A stretch of 32,875 bases of DNA, taken from assembly GCF_002864685.1 (NCBI RefSeq), contig NZ_NMQZ01000048.1, positions 1 to 32,875 on the forward strand, written 5' to 3'. Source of the DNA: Alloalcanivorax mobilis (GTDB lineage Bacteria; Pseudomonadota; Gammaproteobacteria; Pseudomonadales; Alcanivoracaceae). Shown one piece after another: positions 13,341 through 29,508 of the stretch (position 1 is its first letter; every line of letters starts with the position of its first letter). The notes under the pieces were generated by a model. That model was not told where the DNA came from. It was given only the letters and a program-made list of their open reading frames with translations, and searched no databases. A program made the position numbers and the translations under genes.

Positions 13341-13777
13341 GATTGTTTTCCCGTCTGTTCCAGACTGATTCGCCCAACGCCGCCCCCACCGAACAGGAAC
13401 TTCATCAAGCCGCCGCCGCGTTGTTGATGGAAGTGGCGCGCACCGATGGCGAGGTGGATCAGCGCGAGCAGGCCCTGCTGGTGGAGGCGGTACGGCGGCG
13501 CTGGCAGTTGGACGACGTGGCGATGAACGATCTGGCGGAGGAGTTACGCCAGCGGCTTGACCAGGCCACCGATTTGTTCGAATTCACCCGCCCGCTGCGT
13601 GAAAGCTGGGACCCGGAAACGCGGGTGCGTCTGATTTATGACATGTGGGCGATCGCCGCCGCCGACGGCCGCGCCGACGTGCATGAGGAACAACTGATCC
13701 GGCGAGTCTCGGAACTGTTGTATGTGTCACACGGGGATTTTATCCGCGCCAAGCTGGATGCGGTGGGGGATGGATAG
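13337..13777 (+). CDS. TerB-like (tellurite-resistance-type fold) protein
   Basis: A 146-residue all-helical protein with the TerB-family pattern: ALLMEVARTDGEVDQREQALL (about residues 27-47) and a second acidic repeat WAIAAADGRADVHEEQLI (about 103-120). In TerB and its relatives these acidic residues bind metal. Solo TerB-like proteins are common and usually unconnected to tellurite. The GTG start overlaps the transaldolase stop by four bases; a link to sugar-phosphate metabolism is not otherwise evident. Function unknown. Confidence 0.8.
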   Translation: MRLFSRLFQTDSPNAAPTEQELHQAAAALLMEVARTDGEVDQREQALLVEAVRRRWQLDDVAMNDLAEELRQRLDQATDLFEFTRPLRESWDPETRVRLIYDMWAIAAADGRADVHEEQLIRRVSELLYVSHGDFIRAKLDAVGDG

Positions 13778-13780
13778 ACG

Positions 13781-13811
13781 AGTGTTCAGTGTTCAGTGTT
13801 CAGTGTTCAGT
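13781..13811. repeat. Heptamer tandem array (AGTGTTC x4)
   Basis: Four perfect copies of AGTGTTC run from 13781 to 13808, plus three bases of a fifth, starting three bases after the TerB-like stop codon. One AGTGTTC also occurs at 24320-24326, next to another heptamer array. The spacer that follows (to 13945) holds a purine/pyrimidine-rich imperfect stem (about 13858-13893), a common GC-rich repeat between convergent genes that may terminate one or both transcripts. Confidence 0.9.
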
Positions 13812-13945
13812 AATATAGAGCCTGCCGGGTTTCCCTCCCGCGGTTTCTGGAGGGTCCCCTCGCCCCTTGCGGGAGAGGGACAGGGAGAGGGGTGTTTTCC
13901 AATCCAAGCAGGCAACACCGGCCACGCCCTGACCCTTTCATTCAC

Positions 13946-14767
13946 TCACCAGCCTTCGTTTCTTTCTATTTCGTCACTGCGTTCCGGGAACGCGGCATCG
14001 CCGCCCTGCCCTTGCAGGCGCTGCTGCAGGTAGGCGTTGCGGATAAAGGTGTAGCGGTCGCCAACGATGTTTTTCTCCAGATCCAGCAGATCAGCCCGCA
14101 GATCAATGCCATAGAGTGCGGCCACCCCATAGCGGGTCAGGTCATCGTCGATGTAAGTCACCGGCCACATGTAGGCGGCGGGATACAGGGTCGCGGTGTC
14201 ACGCACCGAGGACGGCCCAAGAATCGGCAGCACCAGATAAGGCCCGGTGTGCACACCCCAGCGCCCCAGCGTACGGTCCAGGCTGGTACTGTGTTTGGGA
14301 ATGTTCAGCTTGCTGGCCACATCGAACAGGCCGGCCACGCCCACGGTGCTGTTGAAACTGAAGCGGCCAAAGCTGTCGAAAGCGTTACCCCATTTCCACT
14401 GGAATACGTAATTCACGCCGCTGGTGAGATCGTGGAGATTCTGGAAAAAGCGGGTGACGGTGTTGTCCAGCCATTGCGGCGTCAACCAGCGGTAGCCCTT
14501 GGCGGCGGGTTTGATCGCATAGCGGTCCACGGTGTCATTGAAGCCGAAAATCTTGCGGTTGAACCCCTCCCAGGGGTCCTGCTCTTCATAGTTGTAGGCC
14601 GTGCCGGGAGAATCGAACGCGGTGTTCGCGTCACCCCAGTCATCGTCTTCGCTCTCCGCTGGCGCGCTGTTCACCGCGGCTTGATCGGATGCCTTGGCGG
14701 GTTCGTCAAACGGGTCGGCGACCGCGACCAGAGGCAGCCACAACAGGGCCAATATCCAAGTACGCAC
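13946..14767 (-). CDS. mlaA: MlaA/VacJ family phospholipid-transport protein
   Basis: About 273 residues. MlaA is the outer-membrane part of the Mla system, which removes mislocalised phospholipids from the outer leaflet and passes them to periplasmic MlaC. Family motifs are clear: DPWEGFNRKIFGFND, NLHDLTSGVNYVFQ, FGRFSFNSTVGVAGLFDVA, LGRWGVHTGPYLVLPILGPSSVRD. The GTG at 14767 is preferred over the ATG at 14785 because AAGGGAG sits 5 bases before it and gives a clean signal peptide. Unusually, the protein has no cysteine at all, so there is no lipobox; E. coli MlaA is a lipoprotein. An acidic linker (residues about 37-48) follows the signal. No other mla gene is nearby, which is normal for mlaA. 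Confidence 0.93.
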   Translation of the reverse strand: MRTWILALLWLPLVAVADPFDEPAKASDQAAVNSAPAESEDDDWGDANTAFDSPGTAYNYEEQDPWEGFNRKIFGFNDTVDRYAIKPAAKGYRWLTPQWLDNTVTRFFQNLHDLTSGVNYVFQWKWGNAFDSFGRFSFNSTVGVAGLFDVASKLNIPKHSTSLDRTLGRWGVHTGPYLVLPILGPSSVRDTATLYPAAYMWPVTYIDDDLTRYGVAALYGIDLRADLLDLEKNIVGDRYTFIRNAYLQQRLQGQGGDAAFPERSDEIERNEGW

Positions 14768-15025
14768 AATGACTCCCTTATTCATTATGGCCCGGCCAAT
14801 CGGCGCGGGCGGATCAGATCATCGGGCCTGGGCCCCTGTTATAAACACCTGTTGCCCGCGACTTTGAGGTCATGACCAGCCGGTCGGGCCACGCGGGGCG
14901 CACCGGGGTCGGTAAAGCACCGGCAAAGATGTTTTTTCAGAGGGTCCCCTTACCTACCGGCCCGGCAGTTACCATAACGGATTCCCGCCGCCAGAGCGCC
15001 GCTGTATGTAAAAAAACCGATGGTG

Positions 15026-15802
15026 TCAGGTGCTCTCGGTGGCACGGCGCGCACCGAGCAGGATATCCCGTTGCCGCAGGCGCGCCAGCAGGTCCTTGCC
15101 AAACGCCAGGATCGGCGCCGGATCGGTGGCCCCCAGTTCGTTGGCCAGTTGTCTCAGCACCTGTTCACCGGAGGCTGTCGGGCGCGCCTGCATGACCGCC
15201 AGCAGGCGAGCGGTCGCGGCATTGATTTCCATAAAGCCCACCGTGTCTTCGCGATCCCGATAGACCAGCAGCCATACCAATTCATCCAGCGGTTCGCGCG
15301 GCTGAAAATCGGCGCTGATCCGATGAACCGGCCACGGATAACTGGCCACGCAATGCAACGGCGACAGGTATGGCACGCCCTGATACAGGTCTCCTTGCGC
15401 GTCCACGCCCGGCTCTGGCGGCGCGTCGGCGGCGGTGTCCAGCACCAGCTCCAGCCATTCGTAATGGGCCAGCGCGATCAGAAAAGGCGGGTCCTGCGGC
15501 AGCGGCGCGTAATCCTGTTCAAGAAAGCGCACGAATTCGCCGGGGATTTCCACGAAATAGGGTGTTCGGCAGGCGTGCCGGTCAAAGAAGGTGCGCGCCA
15601 GCCGCTGCCATTCGGGCTCCTCGTAAAGGCTGCGAAGCACCGGGAAAGCGCGGTCCAGAAAACCCTGGATATTATTAAAAAACAGTTCCCGGTATATCTT
15701 CAGACGGCGCTCCTCGACGCCGGCCGGCGCCGGGTGGCGGTGCGGGTCGCGCAGGTGCGCCGCGAAGCGACGCTGCAGGGTCTGGAAGGGGGCGTCGGCC
15801 AC
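15026..15802 (-). CDS. DUF2063/HvfC-like partner protein of the MNIO enzyme
   Basis: A protein of about 258 residues whose N-terminal half (FQTLQRRFAAHLRDP, RRLKIYRELFFNNIQGFLDRAFPVL, YFVEIPGEFVRFLEQDY) matches the DUF2063 putative DNA-binding/recognition domain found beside nearly all DUF692 enzymes. In studied systems this partner binds the precursor peptide and is needed for modification. The GTG at 15802 follows the hvfB stop after two bases; the frame remains open further upstream but inside hvfB. It is the last gene of the three-gene minus-strand operon. No DoxX-type gene follows, unlike many related operons. Confidence 0.87.
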   Translation of the reverse strand: MADAPFQTLQRRFAAHLRDPHRHPAPAGVEERRLKIYRELFFNNIQGFLDRAFPVLRSLYEEPEWQRLARTFFDRHACRTPYFVEIPGEFVRFLEQDYAPLPQDPPFLIALAHYEWLELVLDTAADAPPEPGVDAQGDLYQGVPYLSPLHCVASYPWPVHRISADFQPREPLDELVWLLVYRDREDTVGFMEINAATARLLAVMQARPTASGEQVLRQLANELGATDPAPILAFGKDLLARLRQRDILLGARRATEST

Positions 15803-15804
15803 GC

Positions 15805-16653
15805 TCAGGCGCTCCGCGTCAGCAGGCCATGGCGCCGCTGGGTGGCGGCGATGCGCTCCAGCTCGGCGCACAGCCCGGCGAACGCGGGAAAATTAAAATC
15901 CCGCTCCAGCAGCGTGGGCAACACACCGAACTGCTGGTAGGCGATCTCCAGCAAACGCCACACCGCCTCGATCACGTCGCTGCCGTGGGTGTCCACCTTG
16001 AGGTCCCGCGCTTCGTCGTAATGGCCGGCGATGTGCACGTACATAATGCGCTCACCGGGCAATGCGCGGATAAATTCGGCGGCGTCGTAGCCGTGGTTGA
16101 TGCCATTGACGTAGGCGTTGTTGACGTCCAGAAGCAGGCCGCAATCGGCCTCGCTCAACACCGCCGTGAGAAACTCCAGCTCGCTCAACTCCGCCGCGGC
16201 GGGGTCCGGAGCCGCGTAATAGCTGACATGCTCAATGCCGATACGACGGCCAAGGAAATCCTGCACCTGGCGAATCCGTCCGGCGACATAGTGCACCGCT
16301 TCTTCGGTGAAGGGGATGGGCATCAAATCGTACAGCTGACCGTGGTCGCTGCAGTAGCTCAGGTGTTCCGTGTAGCAACGAATGCGGTGCTGATCGAGAA
16401 ACCCTTTCACGCCCGCCAGCAGATCCCAATCCAGCGGCTCCGGGCCGCCCAGAGACAAACTCAGGCCATGGCTGACAAACGGGTATCGTTCGGTAAAAGC
16501 CCGAAACTCGCGGCCCAACCGTCCTCCCATCGGAATCCAGTTCTCCGGTGCCACTTCAAGAAAATCCACCGGCGCGTCCGGCGCCTGGGACAGCGGGCCC
16601 ATCAGGGCCCGCCGCAATCCCAGACCGGTACCGGTCACGGGATAATCGCTCAC
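15805..16653 (-). CDS. MNIO family (DUF692/HvfB-like) multinuclear iron oxidase
   Basis: A 282-residue TIM-barrel enzyme of the MNIO family, which uses two or three irons and oxygen to modify cysteine (or other residues) in ribosomal peptides. Conserved metal ligands are visible: H62 (SHGLSLS), E96-H97 (YTEHLSY), E141-H142 (IEHVSYY), D176 with N178/N179 ([11 protein letters not shown]), H207/H211 (HIAGH), D221/H223 (DTHG) and E250 (LLERDFN). Length is typical. It starts 8 bases after the precursor gene and is followed directly by its DUF2063 partner. The expected substrate is the adjacent EGSCG-repeat peptide. Confidence 0.94.
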
Positions 16654-16661
16654 AGCTGTTC

Positions 16662-16946
16662 TCAGCCCTTTTTGTCGGCGCCGCAGCTGCCTTCGCCTTT
16701 CTTATCCGCACCACAGCTGCCCTCGCCTTTCTTATCGGCGCCACAGCTGCCTTCGGCCTTCTTATCCGCGCCACAGCTGCCTTCCGCCTTTTTATCAGCG
16801 CCGGCGAGCTGGTAGCCGGAACCGAGATCGGAAGAAGCAAACGGATTGGTGGAAGCGGCCTGAGCAACCGGCACGGACAGAGCGGAAGCCATGAAAGCGG
16901 CGCCAACGGTCACTGCCAGGGGGTTCAGTTTGGAATACTTGGACAT
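16662..16946 (-). CDS. HvfA-like low-complexity precursor peptide with EGSCG repeats
   Basis: A 94-residue exported peptide. Residues 1-30 form a signal peptide ([15 protein letters not shown], cut before A31), followed by a short spacer (residues 31-50) and four decapeptide repeats containing EGSCG with cysteines at 58, 68, 78 and 88, separated by ADKK(A/G). HvfA-type precursors in Haemophilus, Legionella and others carry EGKCG repeats whose cysteines are modified by the MNIO enzyme into copper-binding heterocycles (thiooxazole type). Here Ser replaces Lys within the motif. GGAGA lies 7 bases before the ATG. Periplasmic copper or other metal handling is the likely role, by inference. Confidence 0.9.
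16665..16784 (-). repeat. 4 x 30-bp coding tandem repeat in the precursor gene
   Basis: Four exact-length 30-bp units (16665-16694, 16695-16724, 16725-16754, 16755-16784) encode the EGSCGADKK(G/A) decapeptides. Units differ at several third positions and in one Ala/Gly codon: the two N-terminal linkers have AEG, the two C-terminal GEG. This hints at a block duplication and makes copy-number change by slippage or recombination possible. Confidence 0.9.
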
Positions 16947-17141
16947 GGTGTTTCTCCAATAATCATTTGAGGTATTCGAAATCGGGAAGGTTTAACAACG
17001 ATCCGATCAACCATCCCTCGCCGTTTCGACGTCCCATTGATGCACGGATCAGGTAAACGTTACGTGTACGCCGAAGAGAAACAACCGTTTTTTTATGGCC
17101 AACGAGCCGGTGCGACCCGTTGCTCAGCATCAATCACCTGT

Positions 17142-17164
17142 AAAAACGGCGGCTGGAGCCGCCG
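17142..17164 (-). terminator. Rho-independent terminator of the KAS III gene
   Basis: The stem CGGCGGC/GCCGCCG (17147-17153 and 17158-17164) with a 4-base loop is followed on the minus strand by five Ts (17142-17146). It lies about 30 bases past the KAS III stop and separates that gene from the precursor-peptide operon, whose promoter must therefore lie in 16947-17141. Confidence 0.85.
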
Positions 17165-17193
17165 CGTATATGCAAATAAACATAACTGGTCTG

Positions 17194-18324
17194 CTAACGA
17201 ATCCGGTCAACCACCACGCTGCCAATGGAATAACCGGCGCCAAAGGAGCAAATCACGCCTTTGGTGCCCTTCTCCAGATCGGCGTTGTACTTGTGGAAAG
17301 CGATGATCGAGCCGGCTGAGCTGGTGTTGGCGTAGTCGTCCAGGATCACCGGCGCCTCTTCCCGGGAGGCGGGCCGGCCCAGCACTCGGCGGGCGATGAA
17401 CTCGTTCATGTTCAGGTTGGCCTGGTGCAGCCACATGCGCCGCACCTGCTCCACCGGCACCCGCAGGTCGCCGAGATGGCTGGTGATCTGGTCGGCGACC
17501 ATCGGGCAGACTTCCTTGAAGACCTTGCGGCCCTCCTGGCGGAACAGCTTGTCACGGGCGCCCACGCCACTGGGATCGGCGCGATTGAGAAAGCCGAAAT
17601 TATTGCGGATATTATTGGAAAAACGGGTTTGCAAGCGGGTGCCGAGCACCTGCCACTGATTGTCGCTGGTGGCGTCTTCGGCCAGCTCCAGAATCACCGC
17701 GGTGGCCACGTCGCCAAAGATAAAATGGCAATCCCGATCTTCCCAGGCGAGATGACCGGAGCAGATTTCCGGGTTCACCATCAGCACCCGGCGCGCCGAG
17801 CCATTACGAATCGCATCGACCCCGGCCTGGATGCCGAAGGTGGCGCTGGAGCAGGCCACGTTCATGTCGTAGCCCCAGCCGTGTTGCATGCCCAATGCCT
17901 GCTGCACCTCCACGGCCATGGCCGGGTAGGCACGCTGCATGTTGGAGCAGGCCACCAGCACGGCGTCCAGGTCGTCGGCCACCAGGCCGGCGTTGTCGAG
18001 CGCCTGGCGCGCGGCTTTCACGGCGATCTCCGCCTGCACCGAAATGTCATCATCGCCGCGCTCGGCGATGCTGGGGCGCATCCGTCCGGGATCGAGAATC
18101 CCCTCGCGGTCGAGCACGTAACGCTGCTTGATGCCCGAGGCTTTCTCGATAAAGGCACTGTCGGAACCGGTCAACGCTTCCTGCTCCCCCGCCTCGATAG
18201 CGGCGGCGTGGGTCTCGTTATAGCGCTTCACATACTCGTTGAAAGAAGCCACCAGCTCGTCGTTGGTGATGGATTGTTCCGGCGTCCACAATCCGGTTCC
18301 GCTGATCACTACCGAGTGAGTCAC
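17194..18324 (-). CDS. Beta-ketoacyl-ACP synthase III, FabH-like (beta-ketodecanoyl-ACP synthase type)
   Basis: A 376-residue thiolase-fold condensing enzyme. The catalytic triad is visible: C158 in NVACSSATFG, H300 in WLHQANLNM and N333 in DDYANTSSAGS. The N-terminal GTGLWTPEQSITNDELVASFNEYV and the insert FIEKASGIKQRYVLDREGILDP resemble the long FabH homologue of Pseudomonas aeruginosa (PA3286), which condenses octanoyl-CoA from beta-oxidation with malonyl-ACP to shunt chains into fatty acid synthesis. That specificity is inferred. The GTG at 18324 has a GAGG 8 bases upstream; a TTG six codons earlier is the alternative. Confidence 0.9.
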   Translation of the reverse strand: MTHSVVISGTGLWTPEQSITNDELVASFNEYVKRYNETHAAAIEAGEQEALTGSDSAFIEKASGIKQRYVLDREGILDPGRMRPSIAERGDDDISVQAEIAVKAARQALDNAGLVADDLDAVLVACSNMQRAYPAMAVEVQQALGMQHGWGYDMNVACSSATFGIQAGVDAIRNGSARRVLMVNPEICSGHLAWEDRDCHFIFGDVATAVILELAEDATSDNQWQVLGTRLQTRFSNNIRNNFGFLNRADPSGVGARDKLFRQEGRKVFKEVCPMVADQITSHLGDLRVPVEQVRRMWLHQANLNMNEFIARRVLGRPASREEAPVILDDYANTSSAGSIIAFHKYNADLEKGTKGVICSFGAGYSIGSVVVDRIR

Positions 18325-18450
18325 AAGCCTGTCCTCGCGCAAAAGGGCGACCGGCCACGCCGGTTACCGCGACGGTAAATGGGTCAATTATCCGGATATG
18401 TCGGCTCCAGCGCAAAGGGTGGCCGCGATAGCGATACGAAAAGCAGATAG

Positions 18451-18590
18451 AGGATGCAGGATTCAGGATACAGCGCGGGAGACCGCTTGGTTTGCTAAAG
18501 GGTTGTGCCCGCGCCATGGCCTCAGCGCGGAGTCGGGCGTACATGAACCTGATCAAACGTCATCGCGCTGAATCCTGAATCTTGCATCCT
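18451..18590. repeat. Inverted heptamer arrays (AGGATNC) forming a long stem-loop
   Basis: The left array at 18451-18471 is AGGATGC, AGGATTC, AGGATAC; the right array at 18570-18590 is the reverse-complement type (GAATCCT, GAATCTT, GCATCCT). The arms 18451-18477 and 18564-18590 are 27-bp inverted repeats with two mismatches around an 86-base loop. The element fills the spacer between hrpA (ends 18599) and the KAS III gene, both on the minus strand. It lacks a T-run typical of a terminator. Confidence 0.85.
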
Positions 18591-18598
18591 GTATCGCT

Positions 18599-21500
18599 TT
18601 AACACGCCTCCCACTGCCGGTTGAGCCGCTTCGCGGACACCGGCATACGCGTGCCCAGGGTCTGGGCGAACAGACTGACCCGATACTCCTCAAGCATCCA
18701 GCGAAACAGCGTCAGCGGCTCGCTTTGCCGCCACGGCGGGGCGTCACCGGCGCGACGCAGATATTGTTGCCAATACTCTTCCAGCTCGGCGCTGACGGTA
18801 CGGTCGCGACCGATCTGGCCGGGCAGCTTTTCCAGACGCTGGGTCAGCGCCGCCAGATAACGGGGATACTCCCGAAGCCAGGCCGCGGGCGTGGTGAGCA
18901 GAAAATCCTCATCGAACAGCGCCGCCAGTTGGGTTTTGATGTCGCGGTGGGCATGCGCCCAGGCGAGCGGGAAATTTTTCTCCAGGCGCGCCATCACCCC
19001 ACGGTAGTCGGCGAACATCGCCGCCCAGCCGGCCAGGCTGGTTTCAGCGGCGGGCACGAAATCGCCACGCCCGGCGTCCAGCCGCTGCTGGAAGCTGTGC
19101 TCGTCGCGAATGCCCTCCTGGTGCAAATGGAAATGCTCACTGGTCGCTCTCAGCAGTGCCTGCTCCAGCGCCTGGCGGGCCATCGGCGACTTTTCCGCTT
19201 TCAGCTTCTGGAAACCGGGTTGCTGGCCGGCGAAGCGCCGCAACTGGCGGGCCTGTTCCGGCAACCGCAGCAGCATCAGCCGGGCTACCCCGTAACCGTG
19301 CGTCTGTTGTGCTTGCTCGGCGTCGCTGACGCGCACCAGCGCGACCCGATCGCCACGGTCCTCCAGCGCCGGGTAGTAGCGCAATCGCAACCCGCCCTGC
19401 TCGCTTTCGTCGCTGACCGGCAAACTGCCAAAGCGCCACTCTCGCTCTTCCTGCGGCGGTGGTTGCTCGCCGGACCGTGGGGCCACGGCCAGTGCCGAAA
19501 AACGTTCGCGCAACGCGGCCAGGTCGCGGCCCTCGGCCAGGGTGGCGCCGTGCTCGTCGACCACGCGGACATTAATGCGCAGGTGTTCGGCCAGTTGCGC
19601 CTCCGGCCATTCCTCTTGCTCCACGCGCACGCCGGTCATCCGTTGCAGTTCCCGGGTCAAGGCCGCCAGCAGCGGCCGGTCCGGCCGCAGGGCCTCCATC
19701 AACGCGTTGACGTAATCCGGCACCGGCACGAAATGCCGGCGACGCGCCTTCGGCAGAGCGCGGATCAAGGCTTCCAGTTTTTCGCGCAACAATCCCGGCA
19801 CCAGCCACGCCAGACGCTCCTGCTCCACCTGCGCGAGCGCCGCCACCGGCACCACCAGGGTGACGCCATCCTGCTCGCCGGTGGGGTCGAAACTGTACTC
19901 CAGAGGCAATTCCAGCGCGCCGAAGCGCAGATGATCGGGGAACGCGTCCTCGCGCAGCTCCGCGCTGCGCGAGAGCAGAAAATCGTCGTCCATCAGCAGA
20001 GCGGCCCGCTGGGCCGGATCGGCCCGCTTGCGGTACCAGGTCCGCAAGTGGGCCAGAGAATAAAGGTCTTCGGGAAGTCGCTCGTCGTAAAACGCCACCC
20101 GCGCTTCCTCGTCCACCAGAATGTCCCGTCGACGCAGCTTGTGCTCGATCTCCTCAAGGCTTTCCAGGCGCTCCCGGTTGGCCTTGACGAACTCCGGCTC
20201 CTGACTCAGCTGGCCGGCCACCAGCCCTTCACGGATCATCAATTCACGGGCCAGCGGCGGGTCCAGCGGGCCATAGTTGACCCGGCGGCCGGCGGCCAGC
20301 ACCAACCCGAACAGATTGATTTGCTCCTTGGCCATCACACAGCCACGCCGTTTCGACCAGTGCGGTTCGGAATACTGGCGCTTGATCAGATGCGCCGCTT
20401 CGGCTTCGATCCATTGCGGCTCCACCCTGGCCACCACGCGGGCGAACAGCCGGCTGGTCTCCACCTGCTCGGCGGCCACCAGCCAGCGGCTTTTGGTTTT
20501 TCTGAGCGCCGAGCCGGGCCAGATCAGCGGCTTGCGATTGCGAGTGGAAAGCCACTCGCCCTCTTCATCACGGCTCATCACGTTGCCCAGCAGGCCGGTC
20601 AGCAAAGCCCGGTGGATCGGCTCATAGCCGGCCGGTTCGGCATTCAGCGCCCAACCGGCCTCCCGGGCCAGCAACACCAATTGGCGGTGGGTGTCACGCC
20701 ATTCGCGCATCCTTGACGGCGCCAGAAAATTTTTCTTCAGCAGCTTTTCGTACTGGTTTCTGGTCAACGCCTCGCGCTGCTCTTCAGCCCAGCACCACAG
20801 GTTCCAAAAAAACAGGAAATCGGATTCCTTGCTCTCGAACGGCTGGTGAGCCTGGTCCGCTTGCTGCTGCTTATCGCGCGGCCGCTCACGGGGGTCCTGC
20901 ACCGCCAGGCCAGCCACGATCACCAGCGTTTCTCGCAGGCACTGCTTGGCGGCGCCGGCGACCACCATGCGTGCCAGAGTGGGATCAAGCGGAAAGCGCG
21001 CCAGTTGCCGTCCCAGAGTGGTCGGCTGGCGCTGCGCATCCAAGGCGCCCAACTCCTCGAGCAATCGATAACCGTCGCGGACAAAGCGTCCGTCCGGCGG
21101 CTCCATAAAGGGAAAGTCCTCCACCTTGCCGAGCCGCAGATCCGCCATCTGCAGAATCACCGCCGCCAGGTTGGTGCGCTGAATTTCCGGATCGGTAAAG
21201 GCTGGCCGCTTGAGGAAATCATCTTCGCCGTAGAGCCGGTAGGCGATGCCCGGCATCAAGCGCCCACTGCGCCCGGCGCGCTGGTTGGCGCTGGCCTGGG
21301 AAACCGGCTCCACCGGCAAGCGCTGCACCTTGGAATGCACGCTGTAACGGCTGATGCGGGCGGTACCGGCGTCGATCACGTAGCGGATGCCGGGCACCGT
21401 CAGCGAGGTTTCCGCCACGTTGGTGCTCAGCACCACGCGCCGGCCCCGGTGCGCGGAAAACACCCGCTGCTGCTCGGCGGCACTGAGCCGGGCGTACAAC

Positions 21501-22450
21501 GGCAACAGCTCGGTGTCGCGAAACTCGCAGCGCTTTAAATGGTGGTGCACGTCGCGAATGTCCCGCTCGCCACTGAGGAACACCAGCACGTCGCGGGCGC
21601 CGGACGCCCCCGAGCGGCGCTCCTCGGCCTGGATCTCGCGCAGCACCTCCTCGACCTGCTGCCCCAGCTCGCGCTCGCCTTCCGGTGGCCGGTAGCGGGT
21701 TTCCACCGCAAAGGTGCGCCCGGACACTTCGAAAACCGGCGCTCCGGAAAAATGCTCCGCGAAGCGGCGATGATCAATGGTCGCCGAGGTGATGATCACC
21801 TTCAGATCCGGCCGGCTCGGCAACAGTTGTTTTAAATAGCCCAGCAGAAAATCAATATTCAAACTGCGCTCGTGGGCCTCATCGATGATCAGGGTGTCAT
21901 AGCGATTCAGAAAGCGGTCGTTCTGCACTTCGCTGAGCAGCATGCCGTCGGTCATCAGTTTGATCAGGCTGTTGTCGCCCACCTGCTCGCTGAAGCGCAC
22001 TTTGTAACCCACCAGCGCGCCCACCTGGCTGTGCAGTTCCTCGGCCAGGCGCGACGCCACCGAACGCGCCGCCAGCCGGCGTGGCTGGGTGTGGCCGATG
22101 TAGCCATTCGCGCCCCGCCCCAGCTGCAGGCAGATTTTGGGAAGCTGGGTGGTTTTGCCGGAGCCGGTCTCGCCGGCCACCACCACCACCTGATGGCGGC
22201 GGATCGCCTCGGCCAGTTCCTCGCGGTGGTGCACCACCGGCAGATCCGGCCAATCGAGCCGGGCCGGAATCAGCGCCGAGCGGCGCTCACGCTCGGCCAC
22301 CGAGCGTTCGATGGCCGCCGCCAGCTTGGCGCGCGCTGCGTCGCCATCACGGCCACGCAGCCCGTCAAGACGCTTTTTCAGGCGAGGCCGGTCGGCGCCG
22401 CGAACCTGCTCCAGGCGCTGATAAAGTTGGTTCAATGGAGTGTCGGTCAT
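18599..22450 (-). CDS. hrpA: ATP-dependent RNA helicase HrpA
   Basis: A 1283-residue DEAH-box RNA helicase, full length for HrpA. In E. coli HrpA helps rescue stalled or collided ribosomes and process some fimbrial mRNAs. Walker A GETGSGKT is at residues 93-100, the DEAH box at 190-193 (IIDEAHERS), motif III ITSATID follows, and QRAGRSGR is motif VI. The long C-terminal region is the HrpA-specific extension. The start ATG at 22450 lies 15 bases past the stop of the upstream M61 peptidase on the same strand, so the two may be co-transcribed. Confidence 0.97.
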   Translation of the reverse strand: MTDTPLNQLYQRLEQVRGADRPRLKKRLDGLRGRDGDAARAKLAAAIERSVAERERRSALIPARLDWPDLPVVHHREELAEAIRRHQVVVVAGETGSGKTTQLPKICLQLGRGANGYIGHTQPRRLAARSVASRLAEELHSQVGALVGYKVRFSEQVGDNSLIKLMTDGMLLSEVQNDRFLNRYDTLIIDEAHERSLNIDFLLGYLKQLLPSRPDLKVIITSATIDHRRFAEHFSGAPVFEVSGRTFAVETRYRPPEGERELGQQVEEVLREIQAEERRSGASGARDVLVFLSGERDIRDVHHHLKRCEFRDTELLPLYARLSAAEQQRVFSAHRGRRVVLSTNVAETSLTVPGIRYVIDAGTARISRYSVHSKVQRLPVEPVSQASANQRAGRSGRLMPGIAYRLYGEDDFLKRPAFTDPEIQRTNLAAVILQMADLRLGKVEDFPFMEPPDGRFVRDGYRLLEELGALDAQRQPTTLGRQLARFPLDPTLARMVVAGAAKQCLRETLVIVAGLAVQDPRERPRDKQQQADQAHQPFESKESDFLFFWNLWCWAEEQREALTRNQYEKLLKKNFLAPSRMREWRDTHRQLVLLAREAGWALNAEPAGYEPIHRALLTGLLGNVMSRDEEGEWLSTRNRKPLIWPGSALRKTKSRWLVAAEQVETSRLFARVVARVEPQWIEAEAAHLIKRQYSEPHWSKRRGCVMAKEQINLFGLVLAAGRRVNYGPLDPPLARELMIREGLVAGQLSQEPEFVKANRERLESLEEIEHKLRRRDILVDEEARVAFYDERLPEDLYSLAHLRTWYRKRADPAQRAALLMDDDFLLSRSAELREDAFPDHLRFGALELPLEYSFDPTGEQDGVTLVVPVAALAQVEQERLAWLVPGLLREKLEALIRALPKARRRHFVPVPDYVNALMEALRPDRPLLAALTRELQRMTGVRVEQEEWPEAQLAEHLRINVRVVDEHGATLAEGRDLAALRERFSALAVAPRSGEQPPPQEEREWRFGSLPVSDESEQGGLRLRYYPALEDRGDRVALVRVSDAEQAQQTHGYGVARLMLLRLPEQARQLRRFAGQQPGFQKLKAEKSPMARQALEQALLRATSEHFHLHQEGIRDEHSFQQRLDAGRGDFVPAAETSLAGWAAMFADYRGVMARLEKNFPLAWAHAHRDIKTQLAALFDEDFLLTTPAAWLREYPRYLAALTQRLEKLPGQIGRDRTVSAELEEYWQQYLRRAGDAPPWRQSEPLTLFRWMLEEYRVSLFAQTLGTRMPVSAKRLNRQWEAC

Positions 22451-22464
22451 CCCTTCACAGCGCC

Positions 22465-24255
22465 TTAGCGGCCCAGCAGCCAGGCCCGGCCTTTTTCAGT
22501 CAAGCCACCCTCGGCGAGACTGAAAAAGGCGGTGTCCGGTTCGGAGCGTGCCAGGCTCACGGTGAAGCGCATCAGCTCGTCACGGCGGAAGGCATGCACG
22601 TCCACCCGCTCGCCTTCCTGATAGGCGGCCAGCAGGCTATCGAGTGAGCCGGCGTCGGTCTTGATGCCGTCCACGGCGATGATCACATCGCCGGCGGAGA
22701 GCCCGGCGGCCATCGCCGCGCCCTGCTGGTAGGCCACCTGAATGCGCGCGCCCTGTGGGTCGGCGGCCACCCGCACGCCCAAATGCACCGGCGGCGGCGC
22801 ACTGGCCGCTTTGCCACCGTTGTCGCCGTGGCTACTGGCCGAGCGCCAATGAAGCAGCACACCACGACTTTCCAGCAAGGCAGCCAGCGGCAGATCGCCG
22901 GTGCCGTACAGCGCCGGTTCGAAGAAATCGCTCAGGTCCTCGCCCAGCAGCTCTTCCGCCAGCGCCTGTATGCCCTGCTCCGGCACGCCCTGATCCTGAC
23001 CATGGCGCTGCCACAACAAACGCATCAAGTGATCCAGGGTGACCCGCTCGTCGCTGCGATCGCGCAACGTCAAATCCAGGGCCAAAGCAATCAGCGCGCC
23101 CTTGGCGTAATAGCTGACAATCGCGTTGGGGGCGTTCTCGTCCTGCTTATAGAAACGGGTCCAGGCATCGAAGCTGGATTCAGTGACGGTTTGCCGCAGA
23201 CGGCCCTGGCCGCGCTGCACCCGGGTCAGGGTCTGGCCCAGCAATTCCAGGTAACTCTCCGGTTTAATCAGGCCGGTGCGCGCCAGCGCCAGGTCATCGT
23301 AGTAACTGGTGATGCCTTCGAACGCCCACAACAATTCGGTGTGCACCTCCTGGCGCAGATCAAACGGGGTGAACGCCGCCGGCTTGATGCGTTTGATGTT
23401 CCAGGTGTGGAAGTATTCGTGGCTGCACAGACCCAGGTAGCCGCGATAGCCATCGCGGACCTCGTCGGCGCCGTCGGTGCGCCGTGGCAGATCGCCGCGC
23501 GGGCTCATCAAGCTGGTGGAATTGCGGTGCTCCAACCCTCCGTAGCCATCGGTGACCAGGGTCATGAACAGGTAATCGCGCACCGGCGCCGGTTCACCAA
23601 AAAGACCAATATGCTGCTCGCAGATCACCTTAAGGTCCCGGCACAGGCGCGCCATGTCGGCGCGTTGGCGTCCGGTCAGCACCACCCGGTGGGGCACGCC
23701 ACAGGCTTCGAATTCGGCGTGTTCGAACTGCCCCATCTCCACCGGATGATCGATCAGCGCGTCGTAGCTTTCCGCTTCAAAGTCGCCGAACCCCAAGGCC
23801 TCACCGCTGATCCGGCTCATCCCGGTGGCCAGCTTCCAGGTCGCGTATTGCGGCCCGGCGGGCGGCTCCATGGTGACCCGGCACGGCTGGTCTTCGTGCC
23901 CCATGGCGGCCAGGAACACACAGGTTCCGTTGAAATAGCCGTGGGTGGGGTCCAGGTGGGCACCACGCACCGACAAATCCCAGGCGTAAACCTGATAGGT
24001 CACGCTCACCGGGCCCTCGGCCACCGGTGGCAACTGCCAGGTTTGTTTGTCCAGCTTGGCGATCGTGAGCGTCTGATCCCCGGCATGGGCCTCGATCGAC
24101 ACGATATGGCGGGCAAAATCACGGATCATATAACTGCCCGGAATCCACGCCGGCATCGTCACCGCCTGGCCCTCCGGGGTCGGCTCGGCCACGGTCAGGG
24201 TCACTTCGAAGAGATGGGCTTCGGGTCGCAGCGGACGGATCTGATAGTGGATCAC
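22465..24255 (-). CDS. M61 family metallopeptidase with C-terminal PDZ domain
   Basis: A 596-residue glycyl-aminopeptidase-type (M61) zinc peptidase. The zinc site is HEYFHTW (H279, E280, H283), with the third ligand E313 in WAFEGITSYY. The N-terminal beta domain covers about residues 1-170, and a PDZ domain is at about 490-570 (LGVRVA, GAAMAAGLSAGDVIIAVDG). No signal peptide is seen, so it should act in the cytoplasm. The GTG start at 24255 has AGGAG 6 bases upstream. Probable role: trimming peptides with small N-terminal residues; the link to hrpA directly downstream is positional only. Confidence 0.93.
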   Translation of the reverse strand: MIHYQIRPLRPEAHLFEVTLTVAEPTPEGQAVTMPAWIPGSYMIRDFARHIVSIEAHAGDQTLTIAKLDKQTWQLPPVAEGPVSVTYQVYAWDLSVRGAHLDPTHGYFNGTCVFLAAMGHEDQPCRVTMEPPAGPQYATWKLATGMSRISGEALGFGDFEAESYDALIDHPVEMGQFEHAEFEACGVPHRVVLTGRQRADMARLCRDLKVICEQHIGLFGEPAPVRDYLFMTLVTDGYGGLEHRNSTSLMSPRGDLPRRTDGADEVRDGYRGYLGLCSHEYFHTWNIKRIKPAAFTPFDLRQEVHTELLWAFEGITSYYDDLALARTGLIKPESYLELLGQTLTRVQRGQGRLRQTVTESSFDAWTRFYKQDENAPNAIVSYYAKGALIALALDLTLRDRSDERVTLDHLMRLLWQRHGQDQGVPEQGIQALAEELLGEDLSDFFEPALYGTGDLPLAALLESRGVLLHWRSASSHGDNGGKAASAPPPVHLGVRVAADPQGARIQVAYQQGAAMAAGLSAGDVIIAVDGIKTDAGSLDSLLAAYQEGERVDVHAFRRDELMRFTVSLARSEPDTAFFSLAEGGLTEKGRAWLLGR

Positions 24256-24356
24256 TTTCTACTCCTGGCGGGCCAACGTTCAGTACCGGCGAATGATACA
24301 GGGGGAAGGGGCAGTTTTCAGTGTTCGGAGCGGGAAGACTCGTGGGCTGGTTGGGA

Positions 24357-24559
24357 ACGCTGGACGCCAGACGCTGGACGCTGGACGCCAGACGCCAGAC
24401 GCTAAACCCGGTGCGGCCAGCAATGGTGTGTTTACTGAATAGCAGAAAACACACCAAAACTTTCAAGTTACGGGTTAAGCGTCCGGCGTCCGGCGTCCAG
24501 CGTCTGGCGTCTGGCGTCTGGCGTCTGGCGTCCAGCGTCCAGCGTCCAGCGTCCAGCGT
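24357..24559. repeat. Paired inverted heptamer arrays (ACGCTGG/ACGCCAG), 7 and 12 units
   Basis: Left array 24357-24405: seven tandem 7-mers of form ACGCNNN (ACGCTGG, ACGCCAG, ending ACGCTAA). Right array 24476-24559: twelve 7-mers in the opposite orientation (TAAGCGT, CCGGCGT, CCAGCGT, CTGGCGT). Complementarity continues inward through CCCG/CGGG, giving a stem of about 50 bp with scattered mismatches. The 70-base centre holds its own 9-bp hairpin, GGTGTGTTT/AAACACACC (24425-24433, 24447-24455). It lies between divergent genes, so it is not a terminator for either. Two AGTTTTC/AGTGTTC heptamers sit just outside at 24313-24326. Confidence 0.93.
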
Positions 24560-24622
24560 CCCATCATTGACGCCTTACCGAACATGTCGCATGTTCTTCA
24601 CTCTTTTCAAGGGGACCCGTCC

Positions 24623-25537
24623 ATGACTTCGGAATGCTTCGTAATCGGTGCCGCCGATGGCCATACCATCGGCGTGCATCACTGGCAGGCCGCCGATCCG
24701 GTCGGCACTTTGATCTGGCTGCACGGCATGGCTGAACACGGTGGCCGTTACCGCACCCTGGGGGAAATTCTCGCCGGGCACGGCTGGAATCTTTATTGCC
24801 CGGATCATCGCGGCCACGGCATCAGCATGGACTCGGACGCCCCTCCCGGCCATTTCGGAGACCGGGACGGCTGGCAAAACGTGATCGGCGATCTGGAAAA
24901 GGTGATCGAAACGGTCAGCGAGCGCGAGCAGGGCCCGCTGGTGCTGGGCGGGCACAGTATGGGGTCGTTCATCGCGTTGGCCGGCGCCGAGCAGCATGGC
25001 GCGCGTCTTTCCGGGCTGGTGCTGTGCGGCAGCGATCACCATTCGAGCGGTTATTATCGCCTGATGGCGACGCTGCTCGGCTGGCAACAGCGCAAACACG
25101 GCGCCCAGGGCCATAGCCCGTTGATCGACAAGCTGACCTTCCAGGCGTGGGGCGCACGCATCGCCGACGCCCGCACCGGCTTCGATTGGCTGAGCGCCGA
25201 CCCGGCCCAGGTGCAGGCGTACATCGACGACCCCAAGTGCGGCTTTCAGTGCACCACCGCCACCTGGCTGGCGCTGGTGTCGGCCCTGGCCAAGGTGCAA
25301 TCGCGCAAGGCCCTGGCCTCACTGCCCCGGCGGCTGCCGGTGTTGCTGCTGGGAGGACGCCGCGACCCAATGAGCGCCGGCGGCAAGGGCATGGACCGGC
25401 TGCAACAGATACTGGCTCGCCAGAACCAGCCGCTGCAACGTCTGGACTGCCCCGAAGGCCGCCACGAGATACTGAACGACTATTGCGCTCCGGAAGTCCG
25501 GCAGACCCTGCTGGAATGGTTGAACCGGCGCCTGTAA
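24623..25537 (+). CDS. Alpha/beta hydrolase, monoacylglycerol-lipase-like
   Basis: A 304-residue serine hydrolase of the Hydrolase_4/lysophospholipase group. The oxyanion motif LHGMAEH is at about residues 33-39, the nucleophile S112 lies in GGHSMGS, an acid is in GGRRDPMS, and the histidine in EGRHEIL, in that order. No signal peptide is present, so it is probably cytoplasmic. Likely activity: hydrolysis of monoacylglycerols or lysophospholipids. The ATG at 24623 has AAGGGGA 7 bases upstream; the frame extends to 24584 without a better site. The large heptamer stem-loop ends 63 bp upstream and may affect its promoter. Confidence 0.9.
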   Translation: MTSECFVIGAADGHTIGVHHWQAADPVGTLIWLHGMAEHGGRYRTLGEILAGHGWNLYCPDHRGHGISMDSDAPPGHFGDRDGWQNVIGDLEKVIETVSEREQGPLVLGGHSMGSFIALAGAEQHGARLSGLVLCGSDHHSSGYYRLMATLLGWQQRKHGAQGHSPLIDKLTFQAWGARIADARTGFDWLSADPAQVQAYIDDPKCGFQCTTATWLALVSALAKVQSRKALASLPRRLPVLLLGGRRDPMSAGGKGMDRLQQILARQNQPLQRLDCPEGRHEILNDYCAPEVRQTLLEWLNRRL

Positions 25538-25561
25538 ACCGGCAGGCGTGGCCGGCGCGGC

Positions 25562-27640
25562 TCAGGGTGTTTCGGAATGGTTCTGCTCACGGGTAAATTC
25601 CACATACCCCAAATAACGATTGCGAATTTCACGCACGTATTTGACCGGCTCCGAGCCGCGCACGTAGCCATACCGGGCCTGACGGGCGTAACCGGGCTGC
25701 GAGAGCAGCAGCATGGCGCTCTCCACGTTGCCAAACCAGACATCCGGGTCCTTGCCCAGACGTTGCGCCAGCCGTCGCGCGTCCTCCACATGACCGTGGC
25801 CGGCGTTGTAGGCCGCCAACGCGAAGTAAATGCGCTGGGCCAGTTCCAGCCGCTGGGGAAAACGGCGTTCCAGCCAATCCAGATAGGTGACGCCAGCGGC
25901 CACGCCCTGCTCCGGGTCATGGGGGTCGTCGTAACCGAACTGGCGGGCGGTGCGCGGCATGATCTGCATCAGCCCCTGGGCGCCGGCGAAGGAGCGGGCG
26001 TCCGGGTTGAAACGGCTCTCCTGGTACATCTGTGAAAGCAACAGACGCCAGTCGAGGCCGGAACTCAGCGCGTACTTCTTGACCAAGTCGTCGTAGGGCG
26101 AGATTTGCTTGCCCGCTTCCACCCGATAACGCTCGTGCACTTCAATGGTCTTTGGCTCGCGGAAGTAGCGGTTGTAAGTCACGTTGTAGAACAGGCCACG
26201 ATAATTGCGAGAAATATAGGCGTTAAGCCGGCCGGCCAGAGCGCTCTGGTCCTGACGCAAGCCCCAGGCGATCTCGCGGGTTCCCGCCAGTGTCCAGAGC
26301 GGCTGAATGTCATCACGGTAGGTGCTCTCCAGCGCCGCCAGGTGGCTGTCCGCCATGGTCAGATCGGTGTCGCCATCGGCGACCTGCTGAATCAGCATTT
26401 CGGTGCTGGCGTCGGGCCGCGTCGCGATCCGCACCGCCACGCCGTCCTCGCGCAAGGCTTCGAGGGTGCCCAGGAAGGCGCTGTCCGGTGCCACCGCCAC
26501 GGTCCGGTCAGTGAGCGCCTGCGCCGATTCAAAAGGCTCTTCGTCGCTACGCCCGATGATCTGCTCGTTGATTTCCAGATAGCGCTTGGAGAAACGCCAG
26601 CCCTGCTCACGGCGCTGTTCGGTGACCGTCATCGAGGCGGCGATCACATCGCCTTCCCCTGCTTCCAATGCCGCGAACAGCTCTGACGCGGAGTTCTTGA
26701 CCACCATGCGCACCCGCAGGTCATGTTGTTTGGCGAAATTGCGCATCAGATCGTAATCGAACCCCATCAACTCGCCGCGCCAGAGAAAGTAGCTGGCCGG
26801 GTTGTTGGAGGTCAGCACACGCAATACGCCACTGGCTTTGATCGCCGCCCAGTCGCGCCGCTCCGGGCTTTGCAACTCGGCGCCCACGTGGTGGCTGACG
26901 ATAAACTGATTGACCGCCGCGCGCAGGTCCTCGTTGTCTTCACGAACCGCCCAGGCAATGCGTCGGCGCGGATTGACCACCGGCCCTTTGCGCAGGTCAT
27001 CGAAGCCCAGCAGCAGGCTGTCGATAAAATTGCCGTCGATGATGGTGGCGCCGTACACCCCATCGGAGACGCCCTGAAGCAGTTGCTCATCGGAGAGGTC
27101 GCCGGTCAGGCTGTTGACACTAATGGCCTCCGATTCGCCGGCCAGAGCCGCGGCGGTTTCCGCGTAGGCGGTGCCACGCGGTACGGCGATGCGCAGCTTG
27201 CCCAGCGAGGCCAGGGTGTCGCCCTGGCGATCGGCGTTCACCACCAGATATTCCCGGATCACCGCCACCGGCGTGCAAAACGCCATGCTTTCGCTGCGTT
27301 CGCGGGTCACCGAATAATTGGTAACGATAATGTCGCCACGTCCGTCGTTGAGCATGACACCGAGCTGTTCAAAGCTGTCCGCGTAAACCCAGCGCGGCTC
27401 CAGCCCCAGGGACTCGGCCATCCGCTCCGCTTGCTCGCGAAACTCCTGCAAAGGTATCCCTTCGCGCACCAGGCCCAGTTCCTCATCAAAACGTGGCGCC
27501 AGCAATCGTAGAACGCCGCGCTCGCGTAACGCATCCAGATCACCGGTCTCGGTGTATTGAGCCCCACCCGGCCCGCACGCGCTGACCAGCAGCGCCAGGG
27601 CGGCCAGCAGCACCGTGGCCAGAGCCCGTTGAGTGATCAA
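25562..27640 (-). CDS. MltF-like lytic transglycosylase lipoprotein with two solute-binding domains
   Basis: A 692-residue protein. A lipoprotein signal ends LLVSAC (C22). Residues about 36-250 form one SBP_bac_3-type domain (RGVLRLLAPRF, GRGDIIVTNYSVTRERSE); about 263-495 form a second (SGVLRVLTSNNPASYFLWRG, EGDVIAASMTVTEQRREQGW). Residues about 513-670 are the SLT transglycosylase domain with catalytic E541 in MYQESRFNPDARS and GAQGLMQIMPRTA. E. coli MltF has a single binding domain and about 500 residues. Expected role: cleaving peptidoglycan in the outer-membrane-facing periplasm under control of bound muropeptide or amino-acid ligands. The start is a TTG with only a distant AGGGG, so the first residues are tentative. 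Confidence 0.9.
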   Translation of the reverse strand: MITQRALATVLLAALALLVSACGPGGAQYTETGDLDALRERGVLRLLAPRFDEELGLVREGIPLQEFREQAERMAESLGLEPRWVYADSFEQLGVMLNDGRGDIIVTNYSVTRERSESMAFCTPVAVIREYLVVNADRQGDTLASLGKLRIAVPRGTAYAETAAALAGESEAISVNSLTGDLSDEQLLQGVSDGVYGATIIDGNFIDSLLLGFDDLRKGPVVNPRRRIAWAVREDNEDLRAAVNQFIVSHHVGAELQSPERRDWAAIKASGVLRVLTSNNPASYFLWRGELMGFDYDLMRNFAKQHDLRVRMVVKNSASELFAALEAGEGDVIAASMTVTEQRREQGWRFSKRYLEINEQIIGRSDEEPFESAQALTDRTVAVAPDSAFLGTLEALREDGVAVRIATRPDASTEMLIQQVADGDTDLTMADSHLAALESTYRDDIQPLWTLAGTREIAWGLRQDQSALAGRLNAYISRNYRGLFYNVTYNRYFREPKTIEVHERYRVEAGKQISPYDDLVKKYALSSGLDWRLLLSQMYQESRFNPDARSFAGAQGLMQIMPRTARQFGYDDPHDPEQGVAAGVTYLDWLERRFPQRLELAQRIYFALAAYNAGHGHVEDARRLAQRLGKDPDVWFGNVESAMLLLSQPGYARQARYGYVRGSEPVKYVREIRNRYLGYVEFTREQNHSETP

Positions 27641-27739
27641 AATAGGATATCCCCTGATTCTCCCCAGACCATGAATCTAACCGAAAAAGGTGATGAGAGG
27701 CTAATCCGTTGGTCGCAGCAGGCGTGGATCAGGCGCGTT

Positions 27740-27860
27740 GGTTCGCGGTCAGGGACCGCTAGTACGCGAAACGCGAAACGCGACACGCGGCACGCGGCAC
27801 GCTTTGCGCTGCGCGCAACACGCCAGGTCATAACCGCGACGCGGTCCTCGACCGCGAAGG
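27740..27860. repeat. Heptamer array (ACGCNNN x6) flanked by an 18-bp inverted repeat
   Basis: Six tandem 7-mers at 27764-27805 read ACGCGAA, ACGCGAA, ACGCGAC, ACGCGGC, ACGCGGC, ACGCTTT: the same ACGC core as the array at 24.4 kb but different variable triplets. The array is bracketed by an inverted repeat (27740-27757 and 27843-27860, GGTTCGCGGTC.. type, 15 of 18 matching). It lies between the MltF-like gene and the terminator of the calcium-repeat lipoprotein gene, both on the minus strand. Confidence 0.85.
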
Positions 27861-27892
27861 CGCTTTGCCAGGCCGTCCTCGCCTTTCGGCTC

Positions 27893-27925
27893 GGTTCGCG
27901 ATCAAGGATCGCTCCCACAGCGGCT
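27893..27925. repeat. REP-like palindrome
   Basis: GCGATC (27898-27903) and GATCGC (27907-27912) form a stem with a 3-base loop, followed by TCCCACAGCGGC. On the other strand this is a GTGGGAGCGATC... element, the common REP form of pseudomonads and relatives, and its tail matches GTGGGAGCGGC near 8.26 kb. Confidence 0.6.
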
Positions 27926-27986
27926 TCGTTGCCTGGTCGATGTCAGCCTGACGTAACGGCTGAGGCGGCCCGGAGGACGATGAACC

Positions 27987-28015
27987 AAAAAAAAAAGGGG
28001 CGCTTTCGCGCCCCT
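27987..28015 (-). terminator. Rho-independent terminator of the OmpA/TSP3 operon
   Basis: The stem AGGGGCGC/GCGCCCCT (27996-28003, 28008-28015) with a 4-base loop is followed on the minus strand by ten Ts (27987-27996). It lies 27 bases after the stop of the thrombospondin-type-3 lipoprotein and ends that operon. Confidence 0.93.
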
Positions 28016-28041
28016 GAGTGCCTGATGAAAGAGGGTTCAGA

Positions 28042-29508
<1,467 letters not shown>

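Follow-up and report, generated by a model that had tools for sequence, protein, structure and literature searches.

The stretch of DNA analysed here, referred to below as the window, comprises 32,875 nucleotides of Alloalcanivorax mobilis (contig NZ_NMQZ01000048.1, positions 1 to 32,875) and harbors, in four of its spacers, head-to-tail arrays of 7-bp units. An earlier note made from the letters alone had described four such intergenic arrays; all were recovered by Tandem Repeats Finder (TRF) and then read in the raw sequence, and all fall between genes, which were called separately. The first, on the plus strand, consists of 4.4 copies of AGTGTTC (13781..13811; TRF, sequence, gene calls and pattern counts), is assigned to a word family designated CAGTKTT, and lies 3 bp past the stop codon of a TerB-domain gene in a spacer between convergent genes. 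The second locus is composed of two opposed arms of the CAGGATD family, a left arm on the plus strand (18446..18473, GGATNCA by TRF; TRF, sequence and pattern counts) and a right arm on the minus strand (18568..18595; TRF, sequence and gene calls), which enclose an unstranded core with CGCG at either end (18474..18567, read from the sequence). The right arm is 3 bp off the stop codon of a HrpA-type helicase gene. Both arms are below the array threshold and so stand outside the 162 arrays analysed below, their assignment being based on TRF and on the occurrence of the same CAGGATD family at other sites.

The third locus carries a GACGCYD-family left arm on the plus strand (24357..24402, ACGCNNG by TRF), an unstranded palindromic core of the form TAAACCCGG..GGTGTGTTT..AAACACACC..GGGTTAA (24403..24478, core alignment and folding) and a right arm of about 12 units on the minus strand (24479..24561), both arms resting on TRF, sequence and unit analysis. 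Adjoining it is a short partial CAGTTTTCAGTGTTC remnant on the plus strand (24312..24326, from sequence), in agreement with the earlier observation that AGTGTTC recurs beside this locus. The fourth is a plus-strand array of the CACGCNN family (27764..27802, ACGCNNC by TRF; TRF and sequence) without a recognised opposed arm. Beside it, at 27837-27935, lie palindromes resembling repetitive extragenic palindromes (REPs; ..GCGATCAAGGATCGCTCCCACAGCGGC..), and similar palindromes also occur in the corresponding spacers of relatives, where heptamers are lacking. The third element folds with -154.6 kcal/mol, against -79.6 in shuffled sequences (24350-24565, z -16.0), and the second with -69.1 kcal/mol (18446-18598, z -5.6 against shuffles). 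An Rfam scan of 13500-28500 gave no match at gathering score and four below it, the best of which, mir-6301, was merely the hairpin.

The window is contig 43 of a 4.10-Mb genome in 92 contigs, of which 1,031,694 bases were sampled for arrays: 764,156 bases picked with knowledge of the window, of contig hits or of genes for REP-associated tyrosine transposases (RAYTs), and 267,538 picked blind. Genes were called with our own codon-usage finder. At a threshold of 14, the sample held 123 period-7 arrays, and periods 5, 6, 8, 9, 10, 11 and 12 gave 2, 4, 3, 2, 0, 3 and 6; period 14, a multiple of 7, gave 70. Lowering the threshold to 11 yielded 162 arrays of period 7, 29 of period 6 and 4 of period 8. 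Two third-order Markov resamplings contained 4 period-7 arrays at threshold 11 and a mean of 1 at threshold 14. The earlier note would have dismissed the arrays as chance microsatellites if period 7 were no commoner than periods 6 or 8; in the blind-picked bases period 7 accounted for 33 arrays and periods 6 and 8 for 2 each. Chance microsatellites are thus ruled out by the excess of period 7 over the other periods and over resampled sequence, and the proposed class with a kept period and a differing unit is real in this genome (123 arrays against 4 and 3 for periods 6 and 8 at threshold 14).

Counts over the whole genome, in which each overlapping window of one array was counted and the reversed pattern served as control, agree with the sample: 544 matches against 7 for ACGCNNN repeated three times plus ACGC, 92 against 0 for CAGTNTT, 33 against 0 for CAGGATN and 160 against 0 for CAAGCNN. 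The control is unsound for AAAGTTN (23 against 9), since its reversed pattern can match the AAAGTTN family. Called genes were overlapped by 8 bp at most in 149 of the 162 arrays. By motif rules of our own making, the arrays were distributed among GACGCNN (70), AAAGTTR (32), CAGTKTT (22), CAAGCNN (14 plus one AAGCTTG variant), GACGTCN (10), CACGCNN (8) and CAGGATD (4), and a single array (1/162) matched none. About seven word families therefore hold nearly all arrays and form one genome-wide class.

These arrays occupy a particular place relative to genes. Among spacers of at least 40 bp, arrays were present in 31 of 77 convergent, 56 of 369 co-directional and 8 of 115 divergent ones. The distance from array edge to stop codon had a median of 8 bp, with 63 of 118 stop edges at 10 bp or less, against a median of 89 bp and 1 of 72 edges for start codons; random placement in the same spacers put on average 33, and at most 44, of the 118 stop edges within 10 bp (1000 trials). 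In co-directional spacers with arrays the stop codon was the nearer in 50 of 56. Moreover, 77 of the 87 arrays lying no more than 40 bp from a stop are on the sense strand and read away from their gene, and the same applies to 22 of the 30 single arrays at that distance (P 0.016). The window loci at 13781 and 18446-18595 follow this rule of location and strand.

Neighbouring arrays are organised into elements of arm, core and inverted arm. Among 54 pairs of arrays at most 300 bp apart, 49 are in plus-minus order, 45 of these with both arms of the same family; beyond 300 bp the order is minus-plus in 51 of 89, as is expected if one element equals one plus-minus unit. Core size varies widely, from short loops (4 bp in one CAGTKTT pair, 13-20 bp in the four CAAGC pairs) to a conserved palindrome, typically about 85 bp long, in the GACGC family, where 24 of the 27 pairs enclose 72-93 bp. 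Of these 27 GACGC cores, 22 carry AACCC close to their left end together with GGGTT close to their right end, and 26 carry at least one of the two. One GACGC core type has the consensus AAACCCGGnnCTG..GGnGTGTTTnCTG..CAGGAAACACnCC..CAG..GGGTTT (13 cores aligned), another has stems resembling GCGGCTACGCAA, and CGCG stands at the start of 5 of 9 AAAGTTR cores. Palindromic cores, stop-codon location and strand rule all go beyond what the earlier note had described. One GACGC element (L172 9527-9947) carries three tandem copies of its core. An autonomous transposon between like arms was considered and rejected, as the genes between widely spaced plus-minus arrays resemble ordinary neighbours, for instance an ArsH-like flavoprotein; between AGTTAAA arrays 3.5 kb apart lie an ISL3-like transposase and other genes (both names from sequence reading alone).

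Within the arms, the columns of the heptamer differ sharply. In 322 units of the GACGC family, columns 1-5 show 24 changes in 1610 cells (1.5%) and columns 6-7 show 240 in 644 (37%), counts which refer to units and not to independent events, as slippage copies units. Starting from CG, the changes in the free columns lead from GC towards AT (C to T 116, G to A 95, G to T 27, C to G 2), and each of the six two-base types is seen again across many arrays. None of 205 fixed cells was altered in 41 units of the CAAGC family, and the AAAGTT-R, CAGGAT-D, GACGTC-N and CAGT-K-TT families have one main free column. Identity at the free columns decreases with distance between units (0.47, 0.32, 0.22, 0.15, 0.16; 0.215 between arrays), a likeness of neighbours that slippage predicts. 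Units with CG lie closer to the core in the 63 of 70 GACGC arrays having at least four units (mean relative position 0.37 against 0.50, 0 of 5000 permutations) and TG units lie outward from it (0 of 1000 permutations), with no significant trend for CA, TA and CT units in these 63 arrays. The position of CG units may reflect growth at the core side, or the core-side units may be part of a spreading element. Left and right arms vary independently, and no pairing constraint between them was seen at the free columns (25 of 27 pairs).

Comparison with relatives was made between species, with no second genome of the same species. In orthologous spacers of Alcanivoracaceae (three to seven loci per site) the window's four arrays were absent by eye, and some of these spacers held REP-like palindromes in their place. 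Congeners of 92-97% identity (84% for G003) were compared at four further sites, called A to D. Site B, the sole one with a change of copy number by whole units, has seven CACGCAA units in G008, two in G005 and G006 and none in G007 and G003. Slippage, one of the mechanisms put forward in the earlier note, is borne out by this difference of seven against two units between sister species and by the likeness of neighbouring units. Site A has 17 units and a core in G008, arm stubs without core in G007 and nothing in G005, G006 and G003. At site C, G008 has arms, core and REP-like palindromes, G005 has arms but no core, G006 and G007 carry a different palindrome, and G003 has none of these. Site D shows, in one case, a core inverted between near-identical CAGTTGA-type arms (G008 against G005), so that the arms probably served as recombining inverted repeats. 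Between the sister-species loci L205 (6680-6960) and L206 (2440-2740) a core of about 170 bp lies the opposite way round between near-identical heptamer arms, as if by recombination between the arms.

In one spacer compared among Alcanivorax sp. 24, A. xenomutans and A. balearicus (L052, L053 and L055), two species have a GACGC element and the third a different hairpin; in another spacer, different words surround different cores. The ACGC pattern occurred 544 times in the window's genome, 530 times in G008 and 0-103 times in the other eleven congeners searched, with any match at all in 16 of 57 genomes. GACGC arms in G008 mostly enclose a core that differs from the one in the window's genome (11 arrays inspected). 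The CAAGC pattern was found in 1 of 142 other Gammaproteobacteria genomes searched, and loci of Chromatiaceae and Pseudidiomarina carry other heptamer words. Dominance of period 7 is demonstrated in this genome and in some of its relatives rather than across the class. In another Gammaproteobacterium (L222), 8-bp arrays lie next to 7-bp ones (131-219, 7914-7963 and 9200-9230); the strict 7-bp period claimed earlier therefore does not apply everywhere.

Published systems offer several parallels. The nearest kin are the GGGAATC/GGGANTN heptamers of Xanthomonas (Rehm et al. 2015, PMC4692102), with about 185 arrays per genome, 89-93% of them intergenic, lying on average 28 nt from the 5' neighbouring gene and 160 nt from the downstream one, in 70-75 convergent pairs, with positions 1-4 and 6 conserved, divergent spacers under-represented, and length and sequence varying between related species. 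Close convergent pairs of intergenic arrays near the 3' end of genes and the depletion of divergent spacers are common to both systems; for Xanthomonas, published work already covers the surplus of heptamers, their convergent pairing and their position close to the 5' neighbouring gene. Unlike the single G-rich word discussed there as a quadruplex, about seven words occur here, several without G-tracts; arrays beside co-directional genes are split almost evenly between the strands there (30% against 35%), against 77 of 87 sense arrays near stops here; and a conserved palindromic core is present here, with none in the parts of PMC4692102 covered. That 7-bp repeats are over-represented in bacterial spacers was reported in 2007 (cited in PMC4692102), the explanations, if any, being a polymerase footprint and, in Xanthomonas, quadruplexes. 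As AAAGTTA, CAGTTTT and CAAGCTG units lack GGG, quadruplexes cannot be the general reason.

Heptanucleotide short tandemly repeated repetitive sequences (STRRs) of heterocystous cyanobacteria also consist of tandem 7-bp units, with several words per organism. Such repeats are named for Calothrix in PMC4692102. Like long heptamer simple sequence repeats, the arrays here are tandem 7-bp units longer than chance. The TAACTGA direct repeats of marine Beggiatoaceae (MacGregor 2015, PMC4679880) are likewise intergenic heptamer tandems, many per genome, with a lineage-restricted word; unlike the present arrays they have a single word, described as directly upstream of start codons, and a single reported indirect (inverted) repeat set. 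Like the REPs of the GTAG and CGTC superfamilies (Di Nocera et al. 2013, PMC3733652), the elements are palindromes scattered behind genes, in spacers whose flanking open reading frames are co-directional or convergent. A further likeness is that these REPs form head-to-head dimers, and some lie within longer palindromes; in contrast to the elements here, with cores mostly of 72-93 bp, they measure 20-40 bp, bear a terminal tag and lack tandem heptamer arms. GTAG or CTAC occurs anywhere in 10 of 27 GACGC cores and CGTC or GACG in 11, at any position. Among the literature matches listed, none concerned such Alcanivorax repeats or several heptamer words with one plan, which is weak evidence that none exists. 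In this genome about seven words share a common step, place and strand rule, with an arm-core-arm plan in several families.

The arrays are thus multi-copy and mostly intergenic, lie behind stop codons with a strand preference, have unequal columns and undergo turnover. On balance, we consider it probable that they belong to intergenic hairpin elements similar to REPs or to miniature inverted-repeat transposable elements (MITEs), with heptamer arms driven by slippage under sequence constraint. As to why the step is 7 bp, what recognises the words, how the elements spread and what benefit they bring, we infer the following. Palindromic elements would land or arise behind genes and be tolerated or useful there; their arms would lengthen and shorten by slippage in 7-bp steps, perhaps beside the palindrome where the polymerase pauses; whole elements would spread in the manner of REPs or MITEs; and arms could recombine, so that cores invert or get lost. 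Recognition of the tandem word, either as DNA or as a hairpin at the mRNA 3' end, would preserve the fixed positions, and the conserved bases would mean that tandem words are selected as words. Hairpins behind a stop codon may affect termination, mRNA decay or translation, and a parallel in position exists in E. coli REPs, which are reported to stall ribosomes when at most 15 nt from stop codons (PMC12306157). Termination, stop codons in all three frames and mobility were each considered. For intrinsic termination the evidence is mixed, and three-frame stop codons, suggested by 7 not being a multiple of 3, are rejected by the CAAGC words and the GACGCCG word, which lack a stop codon. As for mobility, convergent same-family pairs provide the inverted terminal repeats of a MITE, and element-free orthologous sites exist, without clean boundary or duplication. 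The mobile spread raised in the earlier note is accordingly upheld in part, by dispersed copies with a common core and presence or absence at orthologous sites, and lacks a transposase link, target duplication or clean insertion.

A number of results weigh against this interpretation. Neither target-site duplication nor clean insertion was found in orthologous spacers, which appear replaced rather than filled. No link of a transposase to the arrays was found, and the genome's three Y1_Tnp genes all lack arrays on at least one side, which leaves mobilisation by a RAYT unsupported. RNAalifold, run on 13 of the 27 GACGC cores, returned 16 pairs of which just one had double changes; with such scant covariation the core stem is conserved and scarcely supported as a selected structure. 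Left and right arms of an element (25 of 27 pairs) are as unlike as random arms (0.276 against 0.295), and their composition overlap is 0.606 against 0.548 for random arms (P 0.08). Two of the four window loci are not close to a stop codon, the one at 24357 lying in a divergent-gene spacer and the one at 27764 having a start codon nearer than a stop. The first 100 nt past stops fold scarcely better with arrays (mean minimum free energy -36.0) than without (-34.8), and terminator-like sites in array spacers are rarer if convergent and commoner if co-directional; both results speak against a strong role as RNA. In other organisms, a small sample of 73 loci gave 5 arrays of period 7 and 7 of period 6, and 20 further stretches gave 3, 2 and 3 arrays of periods 7, 6 and 8.

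Alternatively, the arrays could be neutral heptamer microsatellites, slippage intrinsically preferring 7 nt (Mrazek's hypothesis, as cited in PMC4692102 and PMC4679880) and arrays surviving behind genes where harmless. The likeness of adjacent units, the copy number differences between species and the depletion of divergent spacers (8/115 against 31/77 convergent) would all be accounted for. However, a neutral array would drift alike in all columns, and the unequal drift observed (1.5% against 37%) speaks against neutrality unless mutation is column-specific; neither inverted pairing around related cores nor the strand rule is yielded by slippage alone, and we hold this account to be rather unlikely. 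The drifting columns moreover offer an internal neutral yardstick for constraint elsewhere, which makes the choice between slippage and function testable. Column-specific mutation itself, such as that of 5-methylcytosine in CCGG, with columns 6-7 driven and the others merely young, fits the main changes of the GACGC units, C to T (116) and G to A (95). Nevertheless the sample shows no depletion of CCGG (observed/expected 1.18), deamination does not account for the G to T changes (27), and units of the CAAGC family drift in those two columns as well, there outside CCGG, so that CCGG methylation is disfavoured as the cause of drift and hypermutation in general appears very improbable.

Fixed and free columns also fit a protein contacting DNA every 7 bp, without proving it, and transposases are known to bind repeated terminal sites. 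Arms serving as tandem sites of a sequence-specific DNA-binding protein, with 5 bp contacted and 2 bp free, would have an analogue in the Omega protein of pSM19035, which binds 7-bp heptads, in direct and inverted repeats, and thus parallels the recognition step (PMC9499535). We regard it as unlikely that the arms are such sites: about seven words in one genome would need several proteins, and no candidate protein was found, though none was sought. A bolder and quite doubtful proposal is that dedicated machinery makes or reads the arms, either a tandem-heptad-binding protein or a templated terminal addition that lengthens the ends of palindromic cores in 7-nt steps; if true, it would account together for a constant step shared by unlike words, for the split into fixed and free columns, for words being less decayed beside the core and for one word enclosing different cores in sister species.

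A Y1_Tnp (RAYT-like) gene (C14; L158 9744-10493) has a three-unit AGTGTTC array upstream (9693-9717) and none downstream, possibly by chance given the density of arrays. In the window, the HrpA-type helicase gene next to the second element (18599-22450) has its six best relatives, by name Alcanivorax or Alloalcanivorax, at 76-79% identity, and a further Alcanivoracaceae bacterium at 63%, on which basis the genus is taken as Alloalcanivorax. Finally, a tandem repeat of 30/60 bp lies at 16651-16802, within or next to a called minus-strand gene.

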